Positions 48,823-54,018 of a stretch of DNA of 64,000 nucleotides are shown here, piece by piece. Each line of letters starts with the position of its first letter. The stretch's first letter is position 1. This DNA is from Stenotrophomonas sp. Marseille-Q4652 (GTDB lineage Bacteria; Pseudomonadota; Gammaproteobacteria; Xanthomonadales; Xanthomonadaceae). Made by a program: the position numbers and the translations under genes. The notes below the pieces were generated by a model. It saw nothing but the letters and a program-made list of their open reading frames with translations. It was not told the DNA's origin and did not search any database. Where the stretch lies: positions 2,835,001 to 2,899,000 of the forward strand of contig NZ_CAKAKE010000001.1 in the NCBI RefSeq assembly GCF_916618915.1. Reading direction: 5' to 3'.

Positions 48823-49584
48823 GTGCCTGTCCACTTCCCGCTCAAGCTCGTCGCCCGCCGCATGCTGGCGCCGACCGTCGGCCATTACCAGTTCGTGCGC
48901 GACGACGGCCAGCCGCTGGATTTCCAGCCCGGCCAGTTCATCCAGATCCACTTCCAGCACGCCGATGGCACCGAGGCCCGGCGCAGCTACTCGCTGGCCA
49001 CCATCCATGACCACACGCTGGGCCCGGGCGACGCGGTGGACATCGCGGTCAGCTTCGTCCCCGGCGGCGCGGCCACCGCGCTGTTCGAGGGCCTGGACAT
49101 CGGCGGCCAGCTGATGGGCAGCGGCCCCTATGGCCGCTTCTGCCTGCAGCCGGGCGACCACAATGCGCGCTACCTGCTGATCGCCACCGGTACCGGTGTC
49201 ACCCCGTACCGCTCGATGCTGCCGCAACTGGCGCAGGCCATGGCCGGACGCGGCGCCGAGGTCGTGCTGCTGCAGGGCGCGCGCACCCCGGGTGAACTGC
49301 TGTACAGCGAAGATTTCCATTCATTTGCCGAAGACCATCCGGGCTTCCGCTACGTGCCGTGCCTGTCGCGCGAACGGCCGGCCGACCCGCACCCGGACGT
49401 GCGCCATGGCTATGTGCAGCAGCACCTGGCCGAATTCGCGCCGGATCCGGCGCGCGACATTGCCTACCTGTGCGGCAACCCGGACATGGTCGATGCCTGC
49501 TTCGAGGCGCTGAAGGGCGCCGGCCTGCCGGTGCCGCAGATCCGCCGCGAGAAGTACGTCAGCTCCACGCCGGTCAAGCGCTGA
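48823..49584 (+). CDS. fpr: ferredoxin--NADP reductase
   Basis: A 253-residue FAD flavoprotein that transfers electrons between NADPH and ferredoxin or flavodoxin and supports oxidative stress defence. The FAD site includes RRSYSLAT and GGAATALFEG; the NADP site is LIATGTGVTPYRSML, with CGNPDMVDAC near the C-terminus. The family usually ends near REKYV; here it ends REKYVSSTPVKR. The start is GTG at 48823. It is followed by two perfect hairpins. Confidence 0.93.
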   Translation: MPVHFPLKLVARRMLAPTVGHYQFVRDDGQPLDFQPGQFIQIHFQHADGTEARRSYSLATIHDHTLGPGDAVDIAVSFVPGGAATALFEGLDIGGQLMGSGPYGRFCLQPGDHNARYLLIATGTGVTPYRSMLPQLAQAMAGRGAEVVLLQGARTPGELLYSEDFHSFAEDHPGFRYVPCLSRERPADPHPDVRHGYVQQHLAEFAPDPARDIAYLCGNPDMVDACFEALKGAGLPVPQIRREKYVSSTPVKR

Positions 49585-49591
49585 CCGTGGC

Positions 49592-49614
49592 GCCCTCGTC
49601 TCCGCGACGAGGGC
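49592..49614 (+). terminator. first hairpin after fpr
   Basis: GCCCTCGTC and GACGAGGGC form a perfect 9-bp stem with a 5-nt loop, seven bases after the fpr stop. No T run follows. Confidence 0.5.
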
Positions 49615-49641
49615 AGACGGTTGATCACTGACTGACGCCAA

Positions 49642-49664
49642 GCGGCGGATCCTTCATCCGCCGC
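49642..49664. repeat. second perfect hairpin after fpr
   Basis: GCGGCGGAT and ATCCGCCGC form a perfect 9-bp stem with loop CCTTC. It resembles short palindromic REP-like units of xanthomonads, but no second copy with the same sequence was noticed in the window. Confidence 0.45.
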
Positions 49665-49734
49665 GCACATCCGGTCCACAGCCTGACGACCTGGCGCTCA
49701 CTACGGTGACAGCCTGCCAAGGAGTCGACAGGCC

Positions 49735-50697
49735 ATGCTGGACAGCGTCATCACCCCCGAATCCCTTTCCACGCTGGAGTCCGAAGCCCGCCAGTGGCTT
49801 CTCTCCCGGCCCGCATTGCCGCTGCCCGGCCGTGGCCAGACCCTGGAACGCTGGCGGGCACTGGCCGACATTGGCGCCCACGACCTGTGCCTGGCCAAGG
49901 TGCTGGAAGCGCACTACGACGCGCTGGCGATCCTGGCCGAGCTGGGCGAACCGGCACCTGCCGACGACACCGTGCTGGCGGTGTGGGCCGCCGAGGGGCC
50001 GCAGGCAACGCTGCGCCCGGGCACCGGGGCTGACACCCTGGACGGCGACAAGCCGTGGTGTTCTGGTGCCAGCCTGGTTGATGCGGCACTGGTGACGGTC
50101 CGCGAGGACGGCGCCTGCCAGCTGTACCAGGTCGGCACCGGGCCCCACCTGCAGCCGCGCGGTGATTCATGGCCGGCTACCGGCATGGGCCGCATTCCCT
50201 CGGTCACCGTGCGCTTTGCCAATGCGCCCGCGCGCCGCGTGGGACAGGTCGACGCCTACCTGCAGCGCCCCGGCTTCTGGCATGGCGGTGCCGGCGTGGC
50301 TGCGGTCTGGTACGGCGCGGCAATGGCACTGGTCGATGCGATGCAGCAGTCCAGCGGCGGTGAAACCCGCGATCGCCTGCTCGGCGAGGCGACGCTGGCG
50401 ATGGTGCCGGCCGCCGCGCTGATGCGCGAACTGGCGGTGATGATCGACGCCGACCCGGCCAATCCGCACCGCGAGGCCGTGGTGCGCGTGCGCAGCGTGG
50501 TCGAGCGCGCCTGCACCCGCGTGCTCGACCTGGCCGGGCGTGCGCTGGGCCCGGCGCCGATGTGCACGGACCGCGACCACGCGCGCCGATGGGCCGACCT
50601 GACCGTGTTCCTGCGCCAGAGCCATGCCGACCGCGACTGGTGCTGGCTGGGCGAGCAGGCCCGCGCGGACGAATGGAGCCGGCCATGGGCGCTGTAG
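49735..50697 (+). CDS. short acyl-CoA dehydrogenase-like protein
   Basis: A 320-residue protein that follows the acyl-CoA dehydrogenase fold: an N-terminal helical domain (LESEARQWLLSRP, LAKVLEAHYDALAILAELG), a beta domain (KPWCSGASLVDAALVTV) and a C-terminal helical bundle (HGGAGVAAVWYGAAMALVDAM, VVERACTRVLDLAGRALG). It is about 60 residues shorter than usual and no catalytic glutamate could be placed, so activity is uncertain. It is the first gene of the coupled 49.7-53 kb cassette. Confidence 0.78.
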   Translation: MLDSVITPESLSTLESEARQWLLSRPALPLPGRGQTLERWRALADIGAHDLCLAKVLEAHYDALAILAELGEPAPADDTVLAVWAAEGPQATLRPGTGADTLDGDKPWCSGASLVDAALVTVREDGACQLYQVGTGPHLQPRGDSWPATGMGRIPSVTVRFANAPARRVGQVDAYLQRPGFWHGGAGVAAVWYGAAMALVDAMQQSSGGETRDRLLGEATLAMVPAAALMRELAVMIDADPANPHREAVVRVRSVVERACTRVLDLAGRALGPAPMCTDRDHARRWADLTVFLRQSHADRDWCWLGEQARADEWSRPWAL

Positions 50698-51431
50698 CCA
50701 CCATCCACGGCCAGGGTACGGCCGAGTCCGACTGGCAGCAGTGCAGCTGGTTGTGGACGCAGCCACCGACCCCGGCGCAGAAACTGTTTGGCAGCGCACG
50801 CCGGCTGGTCGTCGTCGCCCCGCATCCGGATGACGAGGTGCTCGGTTGCGGCGGACTGATGCGGCTGGCGGTGGAAGCCGGACTGGACGTGCAGGTCGCC
50901 GCGGTCACCGATGGCGAGGCCTGCTATCCGCATGAGAAATGGTGGACGCCCGAGCGCCTGCGCCAGGTGCGGCGCGACGAACTGCGCGCCGCGCTGGCCG
51001 AACTCGGTATCGGTGATGCCTGGCACCTGGGCATTGCCGATGGCGGCGTCAGCGCCGATGTCCAGCGGCTGCACGAATGGCTGCAGGACATGCTGCGCGC
51101 CGACGACCTGGTGCTGGCACCGTGGCGGCTGGACGGCCACCCCGACCACGAGGCGGCCGGCGATGTGGCCTACCGGTGCGCACAAGCCACCGGGTGCCGC
51201 TTCCTCCAGTACCCCCTCTGGGGCTGGCACTGGCTGCATCCCGATGCCGTGCACATGACCTGGGACAAGCCAAGACTGGTGGACATCTCCGCCGCGCAGG
51301 CACGCAAGCAGCGCGCCATTGCGTGCTTCCGCAGCCAGACCGGCGAGGTAGAACACCTCCAGTCCGATCCCATCCTTCCCCCCCATGTGCTGCAACGCTT
51401 CGCGCGGGGCCACGAGGTGTTCCTGGCATGA
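50685..51431 (+). CDS. PIG-L family deacetylase
   Basis: A 248-residue zinc-dependent N-deacetylase of the LmbE/PIG-L family, normally acting on N-acetylglucosaminyl conjugates. The metal motif is VVVAPHPDDEVLGCGG near residues 45-60, and the second is GHPDHEAAGDVAY near 145. GGAG precedes the ATG at 50685, which overlaps the previous gene by 13 bases. With the neighbouring methyltransferase and glycosyltransferase, it suggests a sugar-containing small molecule. Confidence 0.92.
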   Translation: MGAVATIHGQGTAESDWQQCSWLWTQPPTPAQKLFGSARRLVVVAPHPDDEVLGCGGLMRLAVEAGLDVQVAAVTDGEACYPHEKWWTPERLRQVRRDELRAALAELGIGDAWHLGIADGGVSADVQRLHEWLQDMLRADDLVLAPWRLDGHPDHEAAGDVAYRCAQATGCRFLQYPLWGWHWLHPDAVHMTWDKPRLVDISAAQARKQRAIACFRSQTGEVEHLQSDPILPPHVLQRFARGHEVFLA

Positions 51432-52015
51432 TCGACCAACAGTATTTCGAGCAGCTTTACGCGCAGGCCGATCCGTTCGGTTACCGCACCCGCTGGTACG
51501 AGGAGCGCAAGCGCGCGCTGCTGCTGGCCAGCCTCGGCCAGCGCAACTACGAACATGGCTGGGAGCTGGGCTGTTCCAATGGCGAACTGAGCGCAGCGCT
51601 TGCCAACCGTTGCCGTCGGCTGCTCGCCACCGACCTGAGCGAGCGCGCGGTGCTGCTGGCGCGCCGGCGCCTGGCGGCGGTGCCGGGTGTCGAGGTGCAG
51701 TGCGCGCGCCATCCCGGCTTCCGTCCGGACGTGCGCTTCGACCTGATCGTCTGCAGCGAGCTGGGTTACTACCTGGACCCGCAGCAACTGCCGCAGTTGC
51801 GTGATGACATCCACTCGGTGCTGGCCGGGGACGGCCTGCTGGTGGCCTGCCACTGGCGCGTGCCGTTCGCCGAGGCCGGCAGCGATGCCGAATCCGTGCA
51901 TCGCGAGCTGGGCCTGGGCCTGGTGGAGAAGTTCCACTACCGCGATGCCGACTTCATCCTGCAGGGCTGGTCGGCCGATCCGCAGTCAGTGGCGATGCGC
52001 GAGGGCCTGCGATGA
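51428..52015 (+). CDS. class I SAM-dependent methyltransferase (NodS-like)
   Basis: A 195-residue methyltransferase. Motif I is WELGCSNGELSAALANRC near residue 42, the acidic end of strand 2 is LLATDLSERAV, and motif post-II is FDLIVCSELGYYL. The fold and length resemble NodS N-methyltransferases, so methylation of a freshly deacetylated amine is plausible. It overlaps both neighbours by ATGA. Confidence 0.9.
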   Translation: MIDQQYFEQLYAQADPFGYRTRWYEERKRALLLASLGQRNYEHGWELGCSNGELSAALANRCRRLLATDLSERAVLLARRRLAAVPGVEVQCARHPGFRPDVRFDLIVCSELGYYLDPQQLPQLRDDIHSVLAGDGLLVACHWRVPFAEAGSDAESVHRELGLGLVEKFHYRDADFILQGWSADPQSVAMREGLR

Positions 52016-52704
52016 TCGGCATCCTGGTTCCCGCGCATGACGAGGAAGACCGTATTGGCGCCTGCCTGGATTCGCTGCAGCGTGCCGCACTGGATCCGGC
52101 GCTGGACGGCGAGGACGTGTGCATCGTGGTTGCACTCGATGCCTGCACTGACGGCACCTGGCTGGAATGCAAGCGCCGTGGTGTGGAGACCCTCAGCCTG
52201 GACGCGCGCTGCGTAGGCGTGGCCCGCGCGGCGGCGGCTGCCGTGCTTCTGACGCGCGGCGCGCGCTGGCTGGCCAGCACCGACGCCGACAGCGAGGTGC
52301 CGGCGGACTGGCTGTCCGGCCAGCTGGCCGGCGGCCATGACGTGTTCTGCGGGCTGGTGGACCTCAAGTGCGAAACCACCGGGCAGCGCCTGTACCAGCT
52401 GTTTCACCGGGCCGAGCGCTGGGGCCACGACCATGGACGGATCCACGGCGCCAACCTCGGCATCGCCGCCCGAACCTACCTAGACGCGGGTGGTTTTGAC
52501 GCGCTCGAATGCCACGAGGACGTGGCGCTGGTGCGGCGACTGGAGGCAGGAGGTACACGCGTGCACTGGGCCGACCAGCCACGGGTGCTGACCAGCGCCC
52601 GCCTGCACGGCCGCGCGCCGCAGGGATTTGCCGCCTACCTGCGCGACCTCGAAGCGCGCCTGGGCGCTGGCCCGGACGTGGCACTGGCCGGAGGCACTCC
52701 ATGA
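52012..52704 (+). CDS. family 2 glycosyltransferase
   Basis: A 230-residue GT-A glycosyltransferase. It starts MIGILVPAHDEEDRIGACL, has LDACTDGTW in place of the usual DDGSxDGT, and the metal-binding site is STDADSEVPADWL. IHGANLGIAARTYLDAGGF and ECHEDVALVRRL are typical acceptor-side motifs. There is no membrane helix. It overlaps the methyltransferase and the next gene by ATGA. Donor and acceptor unknown. Confidence 0.9.
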   Translation: MIGILVPAHDEEDRIGACLDSLQRAALDPALDGEDVCIVVALDACTDGTWLECKRRGVETLSLDARCVGVARAAAAAVLLTRGARWLASTDADSEVPADWLSGQLAGGHDVFCGLVDLKCETTGQRLYQLFHRAERWGHDHGRIHGANLGIAARTYLDAGGFDALECHEDVALVRRLEAGGTRVHWADQPRVLTSARLHGRAPQGFAAYLRDLEARLGAGPDVALAGGTP

Positions 52705-52991
52705 ACCCGGACATCCTCGGCTGGGCCGCCACCGCGATCCTGATCGCCACGCTCCTGCGGCAGACGCTCAAGCAGTGGAAGTCACCGCATCCGGAGGCCG
52801 TTTCCAGCTGGCTGTTCATCGGCCAGATGTCGGCGTCGGTGCTGTTCACCATCTACAGCTTGCTGCTCGGCAACACCGTATTCGTGGTGACCAACCTGCT
52901 GCTGCTCGGCACAGCCATCCTTGGCCAGGTGCTGGCCTGGCGGCGCCGGAAGAAGGACGGGGGCCCGAATCCGCCGGCAACTTCGCGCTGA
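52701..52991 (+). CDS. SemiSWEET-like three-helix membrane protein
   Basis: A 96-residue protein with three hydrophobic helices: LGWAATAILIATLLRQTL, SSWLFIGQMSASVLFTIYSLL and VFVVTNLLLLGTAILGQVLAW. The size and pattern match bacterial SemiSWEET/PQ-loop sugar transporters, which work as dimers. Its ATG overlaps the glycosyltransferase stop, so it may carry a precursor or product of the cassette. The family assignment rests on the helix pattern. Confidence 0.7.
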   Translation: MNPDILGWAATAILIATLLRQTLKQWKSPHPEAVSSWLFIGQMSASVLFTIYSLLLGNTVFVVTNLLLLGTAILGQVLAWRRRKKDGGPNPPATSR

Positions 52992-53004
52992 TCGCTCCCG
53001 CCGG

Positions 53005-54018
53005 TCAGTGGTAGCCGCTACCGGCGGCGATCTTGCCGCGGAACACGTTGTACGACCACGCGGTGTAACCCAGGATCACCGGCAGCAGCACGACCAGCCC
53101 GACGATGCTGAAACCCTGCGAGGACGGCGGCGCGGCCGCATCCCACAAGGTCATCGACGGCGGCAGCAGGTAGGGCCACATGCCCAGCACCAGGCCCAGG
53201 AAACCGAGCACGAACAACGCCATGCTCAGCAGGAAGGGCGGGTAGTCGCGCTGCTCACGCATCGTGCTGCGCCACAGGGCAACCGCCACGCCCAGGGTCA
53301 GCAGCGGCACCGGCGACAGCCACCAGAAGTTGCCGTCGGTGAACCAGCGTTCCATCACCCGCGACTCGAGGAACGGCAGCCACGCGCTGACCAGCCCCAT
53401 GAACACGATCACCGCCACCACCAGCGGCCGCGTCAGCGAACGCGCCATCGCCTGGTCGCGGCCTTCGGTCTTGATGATCAGCCAGGTGCTGCCGAGCAGT
53501 GCGTAGCCGAACACCACCGCCGCGCCGGTCAGCATCGAGAACGGGCTGAACCAGCCGAACGCACCGCCGACGTAGCGTCCGTCAACCACATCCAGACCCT
53601 GCACCAGCGCACCGAGGATCACGCCCTGCGCGAAGGCCGCCAGCGTGGAGCCCAGGCCAAAGGCCACGCTCCACAGCCGGCGCGAGCGGTGCGCCTTGAA
53701 GCGGAACTCAAAGGCGACGCCACGGAACACCAGCGCCACCAGCAACAACAGCACCGGCAGGTACAGCGCCGACAGCAGCGCGGCGTAGGCCTTGGGAAAG
53801 GCGGCCAGCAGGCCGGCCCCGCCCAGCACCAGCCAGGTCTCGTTGCCGTCCCAGATCGGCGCGGCCGTGTTCATCATCACGTCCAGCTGTTCCTCGTCCT
53901 CGGCCATTGGCGCCAGTACGCCGATGCCGAGCACGAAGCCATCCAGCAGCACGTACATAAGCACGCCGAAACCGATGATTGCGAACCAGACCACCGGCAA
54001 CCAGGTCGCCATGTCCAT
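53005..54018 (-). CDS. cydB: cytochrome bd oxidase subunit II
   Basis: A 337-residue membrane subunit of a bd-type quinol oxidase. It starts ATWLPVVWFAIIGFGVLMYVLLDGFVLG, the usual CydB N-terminus with its conserved Asp. Further conserved parts are NTAAPIWDGNETWLV and FEFRFK. It has about eight helices. The start overlaps the cydA stop by one base. No small cydX/cydS reading frame follows; the convergent SemiSWEET gene ends 13 bases away. Confidence 0.95.
   Translation of the reverse strand: MDMATWLPVVWFAIIGFGVLMYVLLDGFVLGIGVLAPMAEDEEQLDVMMNTAAPIWDGNETWLVLGGAGLLAAFPKAYAALLSALYLPVLLLLVALVFRGVAFEFRFKAHRSRRLWSVAFGLGSTLAAFAQGVILGALVQGLDVVDGRYVGGAFGWFSPFSMLTGAAVVFGYALLGSTWLIIKTEGRDQAMARSLTRPLVVAVIVFMGLVSAWLPFLESRVMERWFTDGNFWWLSPVPLLTLGVAVALWRSTMREQRDYPPFLLSMALFVLGFLGLVLGMWPYLLPPSMTLWDAAAPPSSQGFSIVGLVVLLPVILGYTAWSYNVFRGKIAAGSGYH

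Follow-up and report, generated by a model that had tools for sequence, protein, structure and literature searches.

A conserved four-gene cassette in Stenotrophomonas suggests an undescribed pathway for a small modified amino-sugar

Nod factor synthesis by NodC, NodB and NodS is a described case of a family 2 glycosyltransferase (GT2), a deacetylase and a methyltransferase working on one amino-sugar; NodC is a membrane GT2, and NodB belongs to a deacetylase family different from PIG-L. In bacillithiol and mycothiol synthesis (BshA-C, MshA-D) a glycosyltransferase and a PIG-L deacetylase act on a GlcNAc glycoside. A further point of reference is provided by flavin monooxygenases with the fold of acyl-CoA dehydrogenases (ACADs), among them the nitrososynthases, which act on amino-sugars. 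Here we describe a gene cassette at positions 49735-52991 of a 64,000-nucleotide stretch from Stenotrophomonas sp. Marseille-Q4652 (contig NZ_CAKAKE010000001.1, positions 2,835,001 to 2,899,000; the whole stretch is called the window below), in which genes of such enzyme families stand side by side. Its core suggests an undescribed pathway for a small modified amino-sugar used under stress.

The four-gene unit and its spread

The first four genes of the cassette form one conserved unit, which in the window is followed by a fifth gene. All five open reading frames (ORFs) lie on the same strand and each overlaps the next (by 13, 4, 4 and 4 bases):

49719..49724, plus strand: AAGGAG, which likely serves the first gene as ribosome-binding site, read from the sequence itself, ten bases 5' of the ATG
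49735..50697, plus strand: ACAD-fold flavoenzyme, 320 aa, probably monooxygenase-like (the ACAD-like protein)
50685..51431, plus strand: PIG-L family de-N-acetylase, 248 aa (PF02585, 1.8e-27); 13-base overlap with the ACAD-like ORF
51428..52015, plus strand: NodS-like SAM methyltransferase, 195 aa (PF05401 NodS, 7.7e-11); 4-base overlap with PIG-L
52012..52704, plus strand: soluble GT-A family 2 glycosyltransferase (GT2), 230 aa; 4-base overlap with the methyltransferase
52701..52991, plus strand: PQ-loop/SemiSWEET-like small membrane protein, 96 aa (PF03083 0.005 and PF04193 0.007, both below cut-off); 4-base overlap with GT2

In tblastn searches with the window proteins, the four core genes were neighbouring and in the same order in all 18 first loci, of which 14 belong to the same family and one each to plasmids of Pandoraea, Acinetobacter, Sulfitobacter and Kitasatospora. 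At least 538 loci encoding a relative of the ACAD-like protein emerged when named genomes were scanned. Among the 80 taken from these (the named loci), 73 comprise all four core genes and 79 at least three at a tblastn threshold of 1e-3; a threshold of 1e-10 leaves 71 and 78. The junctions are tight: the ACAD-like gene and PIG-L are no more than 60 bases apart in 74 of 77 pairs, overlapping by 13 bases in 29 of these and by 4 bases in another 29. The same closeness holds for PIG-L and methyltransferase in 77 of 77 pairs and for methyltransferase and GT2 in 63 of 73, while in nine loci GT2 is placed immediately 5' of the ACAD-like gene instead. Furthermore, the divergence of the four proteins is correlated pairwise (r 0.81-0.89, 70 loci), and within 20 Pseudomonas loci r amounts to 0.93-0.96 for the four protein pairs computed. 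Natural fusions of PIG-L and methyltransferase account for 80 among the 120 listed of 925 matches. Profile comparison of two cassette proteins gave nothing.

An earlier note on this DNA had proposed that five genes joined by 4-13 base overlaps act together. The ORF coordinates agree, and joint action is borne out by conserved linkage, correlated divergence and the fusions. The note had asked for a neighbourhood survey across genomes and would have given up the idea if linkage were absent or a known pathway could be assigned; linkage turned out to be conserved, and among the NCBIfam matches listed for the window proteins not one reaches its cut-off.

Single loci depart from the common plan. At L097:10897-16457 the ACAD-like gene lies about 5.5 kb away from PIG-L and the rest, perhaps owing to an insertion. 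A second PIG-L gene is found 3' of the cassette at L070:12941-13780 and in similar Pseudomonas loci, and a second copy is also present in L081, L084 and L104, three of the loci in which no GT2 turned up.

Within the same family 16 of 149 genomes gave a cassette match. Within the genus 47 of 91 genomes match at E <= 0.001, two of them weakly, which leaves 45 clear cases. In a phylum sample of 398 Pseudomonadota genomes, the ACAD-like protein has matches at E <= 1e-20 in 33, of which 22 score above 250 bits, and 19 of 20 fetched regions of these strong matches contain at least three of the four core genes. The protein is also matched by 49 plasmid records at 1e-8 (20 from Acinetobacter), the weakest of which need not be cassettes. 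The unit was seen in Pseudomonadota and Actinomycetota, and a Nostoc plasmid matches all four genes, the GT2 match being partial and on the opposite strand. Since its distribution is patchy and it is plasmid-borne, the cassette is probably mobile. One further copy, in an assembly of Bacillus subtilis SK7B5 (L051), is of the Lysobacteraceae type and about 55% identical to that of the window; its contig looks like assembly contamination.

Predicted enzyme families

Alone among the four core proteins, the ACAD-like protein falls below its Pfam cut-off (12.2 vs. 33.3 bits). Its predicted model is a compact ACAD fold of helices, a beta middle domain and a C-terminal helical bundle, and appears to lack only the first ~35-40 residues and some loops relative to that fold. 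With the fold nearly whole in the model, we rejected a broken ACAD; the truncated acyl-CoA dehydrogenase of the earlier note has to be revised in the same sense, as the sequence is also nearer to flavin monooxygenases. In an alignment with two ACADs of this genome (L277, L279), the typical catalytic Glu (YEGTSE type) is absent and its position is taken by Gln 295, invariant in 46 members, while the isovaleryl-type position holds a variable residue instead of Glu among the ten members compared. An SfnB profile matches 40 of the 46 members at E <= 0.01 and a second SfnB/DszC-type profile 28 of 46, the window protein itself matching neither (NCBIfam). The best structure matches include DszC, TdsC and MsuC, nitrososynthases also occur among the hits, and a CSG motif is common to the ACAD-like protein and DszC/TdsC. 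Judged by sequence, the protein leans to the SfnB/DszC flavin monooxygenases, and it is probably monooxygenase-like.

The deacetylase is a member of the PIG-L/LmbE de-N-acetylases (PF02585, 96.8 bits vs. a cut-off of 28.2) and the sole PF02585 match in the genome. Its HPDDE (H47 P48 D49 D50 E51) and DxHxDH (D150, H152, D154, H155) motifs, which correspond to the HPDD/HxxH-type metal motifs of PIG-L, are invariant in 19 PIG-L sequences, and its profile matches a diacetylchitobiose deacetylase of the PDB at 1e-21. The methyltransferase scores 44.8 bits with Methyltransf_25 (cut-off 27) and 42.6 bits with NodS PF05401 (cut-off 24). As Methyltransf_25 is slightly higher and PF05401 also matches in 8 of 14 control genomes, the latter call is a broad one. 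Against the PDB its profile finds 4isc (8e-65) and then NodS 3ofj (5.7e-27), the next match following at 6.6e-13; by this profile comparison NodS is by far its nearest named PDB relative. The score with the NodS equivalog NF041650 (57.9 vs. 300 bits) indicates a relative rather than NodS itself.

GT2 belongs to PF00535 (41 bits vs. a cut-off of 23.3), carries an invariant DxD motif (D91, D93) and is modelled as one GT-A domain. Scores with the arsenosugar glycosyltransferase TIGR04283 (34.4 vs. 182 bits) and with MftF (29.9 vs. 280) stay below the equivalog cut-offs, and structure searches with GT2 fixed neither donor nor acceptor. The fifth protein reaches 17.3 bits against a Pfam cut-off of 23.7 and 17.8 against an NCBIfam cut-off of 80, while some of its 48 homologues (E <= 0.001), including L042 and P0155, lie above a Pfam cut-off. 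A SemiSWEET-like gene 3' of GT2 was found in none of the 18 first loci and in 7 of the 80 named loci, all seven within the 30 Lysobacteraceae-type loci; an eighth copy, in L044, sits at another place and on the other strand. The gene looks like a late accessory, and its inclusion in the unit by the earlier note does not hold.

Stress-gene neighbourhoods and the proposed pathway

Outside the family of the window genome, the cassette lies near stress genes in many loci. Its association with genes of trehalose metabolism and of non-homologous end joining (NHEJ) in other genomes was not part of the earlier note. From the phylum sample, 31 of the 33 match regions were fetched (the own genome and one same-genus match were left out), and the same genomes supplied 30 control regions; for one genome there was none, and one control (L258) comprises only 488 bases. 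Dropping 11 regions with fewer than three core genes, none of which contains a trehalose gene, leaves 20 loci. Among these, treY or otsA was found in nine, compared with none of 30 controls (Fisher 6.7e-5). These linkage counts come from tblastn probes, chosen from plasmid and named loci and not from the phylum sample, because ORF-based neighbour clustering contained antisense artefacts; a recount limited to the treY and otsA probes left the numbers unchanged. Across every fetched region the ratio is 9/31 to 0/30 (p 0.002). Counting each genus once on the cassette side leaves 15 loci, of which 6 are linked (p 6e-4 vs. 30 controls, 0.003 vs. 20 controls).

Trehalose (treY/otsA), NHEJ or catalase genes are nearby in 37 of the 80 named loci. 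In 13 of the 80, all from Pseudomonas, the end of glgX falls between 4 bases inside the ACAD-like gene and 18 bases before it; both genes share a strand, and treY stands behind glgX. In L070 the operon is treZ-malQ-treY-glgX with NCBIfam scores above cut-off (treZ at L070:466-2427). In 11 of the 80, ten of them from Pseudomonas and one from Paucimonas, it is ligD that ends 23-334 bases short of the ACAD-like gene, and in nine of these ku follows convergently 3' of the cassette, giving ligD-[cassette]-ku. Such a metabolic operon within an NHEJ locus, seen at L069:7368-14027 and in ten similar Pseudomonas and Paucimonas loci, is odd; for L069 the identity of LigD and Ku was confirmed. Plasmids show further arrangements. 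In Comamonas endophytica and C. antarctica (L177:6538-11506, L285:6547-11543) the four genes stand between otsA and otsB with overlapping or almost touching ends, while a Legionella lytica plasmid carries otsB-GH65-PIG-L-MT-GT2-ACAD, MT being the methyltransferase. In the three Acinetobacter plasmids read (L003, L181, L286), catalase, DUF421, cassette, MFS and otsA-otsB lie close together as one module. A Cupriavidus plasmid has catalase, a GlgE-type gene and topoisomerase IB as neighbours, and others have catalase (Sulfitobacter), CsbD (Pandoraea) or spore photoproduct lyase and ppk2 (Kitasatospora). Near the locus of Stenotrophomonas sepilia a BLUF sensor, a DUF892 protein and a DNA glycosylase are encoded.

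In the window, a ferredoxin-NADP reductase (FNR) gene precedes the cassette on the same strand, while cydB and cydA follow on the opposite strand, oriented towards it. FNR was rejected as a standing redox partner, as the cassette lies behind FNR in this genome only (0/29 other same-genus loci, flanks of at most 1.5 kb). A scan of 49500-53120 found no promoter or terminator. The stretch from the FNR gene to the cassette holds two GC-rich inverted repeats (window 49593-49613 and 49642-49664), which the terminator scan did not report. That the cassette is clearly foreign DNA by composition was likewise rejected, its GC content being about that of its neighbours; its codon-use distance is slightly larger (0.057-0.081 vs. 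0.028-0.056, with the neighbours as reference).

Our leading reading, which we advance tentatively and rate just short of an even chance, is that the four core genes are a mobile, widespread operon whose enzymes build a single small glycoside when cells face desiccation, osmotic or oxidative stress. GT2 would transfer an N-acetylated sugar onto a small acceptor, the PIG-L enzyme would strip the N-acetyl group and the NodS-like enzyme would N-methylate the liberated amine. Oxidation of the product might then fall to the ACAD-fold flavoenzyme, which would most likely work as a flavin monooxygenase on the amine. A SemiSWEET-like carrier seems to have been added at the end in some Lysobacteraceae, including this genome, perhaps moving product or precursor. 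The modified amino-sugar of the earlier note finds support here, as deacetylase, NodS-like methyltransferase and GT2 fit it. A more specific version remains rather doubtful to us: the product might be an N-methylated, N- or C-oxidised amino-sugar glycoside of a new class of stress metabolites, spread over at least three phyla and deployed alongside trehalose, in certain lineages also alongside NHEJ, as one more means of surviving desiccation and stationary phase.

Several observations weigh against such a stress operon. The block lacks PIG-L in L071, L114, L176, L284, L217 and L227, although L176 has a PIG-L gene next to its catalase gene; no GT2 was found in L081, L084, L104 and L112; L088 has the ACAD-like gene only and L230 two of the genes. 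Among 11 weaker phylum matches a single region contains three core genes at 1e-10, and a Methylobacterium plasmid encodes an ACAD relative with no other cassette gene. The window cassette itself has the FNR gene, an ABC transporter and cydAB as neighbours, and in its own family the stress link is weak: the 30 Lysobacteraceae loci have within 10 kb a trehalose gene once, NHEJ twice and catalase four times. Four of the nine trehalose-linked sample loci represent one genus and one arrangement, and the OtsA-like proteins checked belong to PF00982 but stay below the OtsA equivalog cut-off. In the phylum sample, neither catalase (4/31 vs. 1/30, p 0.35) nor NHEJ (2/31 vs. 0/30, p 0.49) is significantly enriched. 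The RpoS -10 motif CTAYACT is missing from all 80 upstream regions (mean of 0.25 in the background), in which no stress promoter motif was found, and no residue-level evidence fixes an amine as substrate of the methyltransferase or the flavoenzyme.

Other readings account for part of these data. In an envelope modification, GT2 would use a lipid or polysaccharide as its carrier, PIG-L and methyltransferase would edit it and the ACAD-like enzyme would alter an acyl chain, giving a surface glycolipid or glycan. The ACAD fold fits this idea, and 30 of 30 GT2 members match TIGR04283 and 28 of 30 the exopolysaccharide transferase EpsD. However, in the annotated loci read the conserved unit includes neither an acyltransferase nor a flippase nor a membrane glycosyltransferase, GT2 is modelled as a single domain, the ACAD-type catalytic Glu is missing and the best PIG-L structure match acts on chitobiose, so that we consider it unlikely. 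A modified trehalose or trehalose-derived osmolyte, with the enzymes acting directly on trehalose, trehalose-6-phosphate or alpha-glucan, appears distinctly unlikely. The cassette lies within otsA/otsB in Comamonas, at the treZ-malQ-treY-glgX tail in Pseudomonas and beside otsB-GH65 in Legionella, and the window genome encodes an OtsA-family protein and TreY, both far from the cassette. On the other side, 11 of the 20 sample loci and 64 of the 80 named ones have neither treY nor otsA nearby; as some loci are tied to ligD/ku or catalase instead, co-regulation fits better than a common substrate.

Oxidation of sulfur in a thio-sugar or similar compound, in the manner of SfnB, DszC and MsuC, would agree with the SfnB matches and the best structure matches of the flavoenzyme. 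We judge it improbable: no sulfur-metabolism gene recurs among the named neighbours, and the fold group also includes the nitrososynthases with their amino-sugar substrates. A low-molecular-weight thiol like bacillithiol or mycothiol is the least likely alternative, since the genome has no BshC match, and must be called very improbable. PIG-L does resemble BshB1, and a glycosyltransferase and PIG-L pair opens both pathways; yet the BshB1 score is 66 bits against a cut-off of 182.5, and a GT2 stands where BshA and MshA are GT4 enzymes.

Taken together, a cassette repeatedly tied to trehalose, NHEJ or catalase loci and to plasmids probably encodes an unnamed protective compound. Identifying this product would add an entry to the short list of stress solutes in bacteria and account for the recurrent annotations "acyl-CoA dehydrogenase" and "PIG-L deacetylase", and the Comamonas and Pseudomonas arrangements offer convenient experimental entry points.

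Comparison with known systems

A literature search by exact words found no description of the cassette in titles or the beginnings of abstracts, subscription papers and supplements lying outside its range; passages of PMC13118837 are unrelated to the cassette. According to the passages of PMC8084333 on P. aeruginosa, trehalose serves osmotic tolerance and GlgE alpha-glucan desiccation tolerance. They do not mention the cassette, while treZ-malQ-treY-glgX is the kind of operon that carries it at its end in 13 loci of other Pseudomonas. Unlike the operons' own enzymes, those of the cassette are neither alpha-glucan nor trehalose enzymes.

With the ACAD-fold monooxygenases (SfnB, DszC/TdsC, MsuC, the nitrososynthases DnmZ and relatives) the ACAD-like protein shares the fold and the closest sequence profile. 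In contrast to these relatives, whose solved chains comprise ~390-415 aa, it has 320 aa and is encoded together with PIG-L, NodS-like and GT2 genes. Compared with BshA-C and MshA-D, the cassette has a GT2 instead of a GT4, and a methyltransferase and a flavoenzyme rather than a cysteine ligase.

With nodB, nodC and nodS the unit shares the plan of a GT2, a de-N-acetylase and a NodS-type methyltransferase on an amino-sugar, whereas it employs PIG-L, a soluble GT2 and an extra flavoenzyme and is distributed far beyond rhizobia. A Nod pathway was not found, as the unit lacks the NodA acyltransferase; the remainder of the genome was not searched for nodABC. By analogy, the cassette would resemble a soluble NodC-NodB-NodS team plus a flavoenzyme, but not a Nod system.

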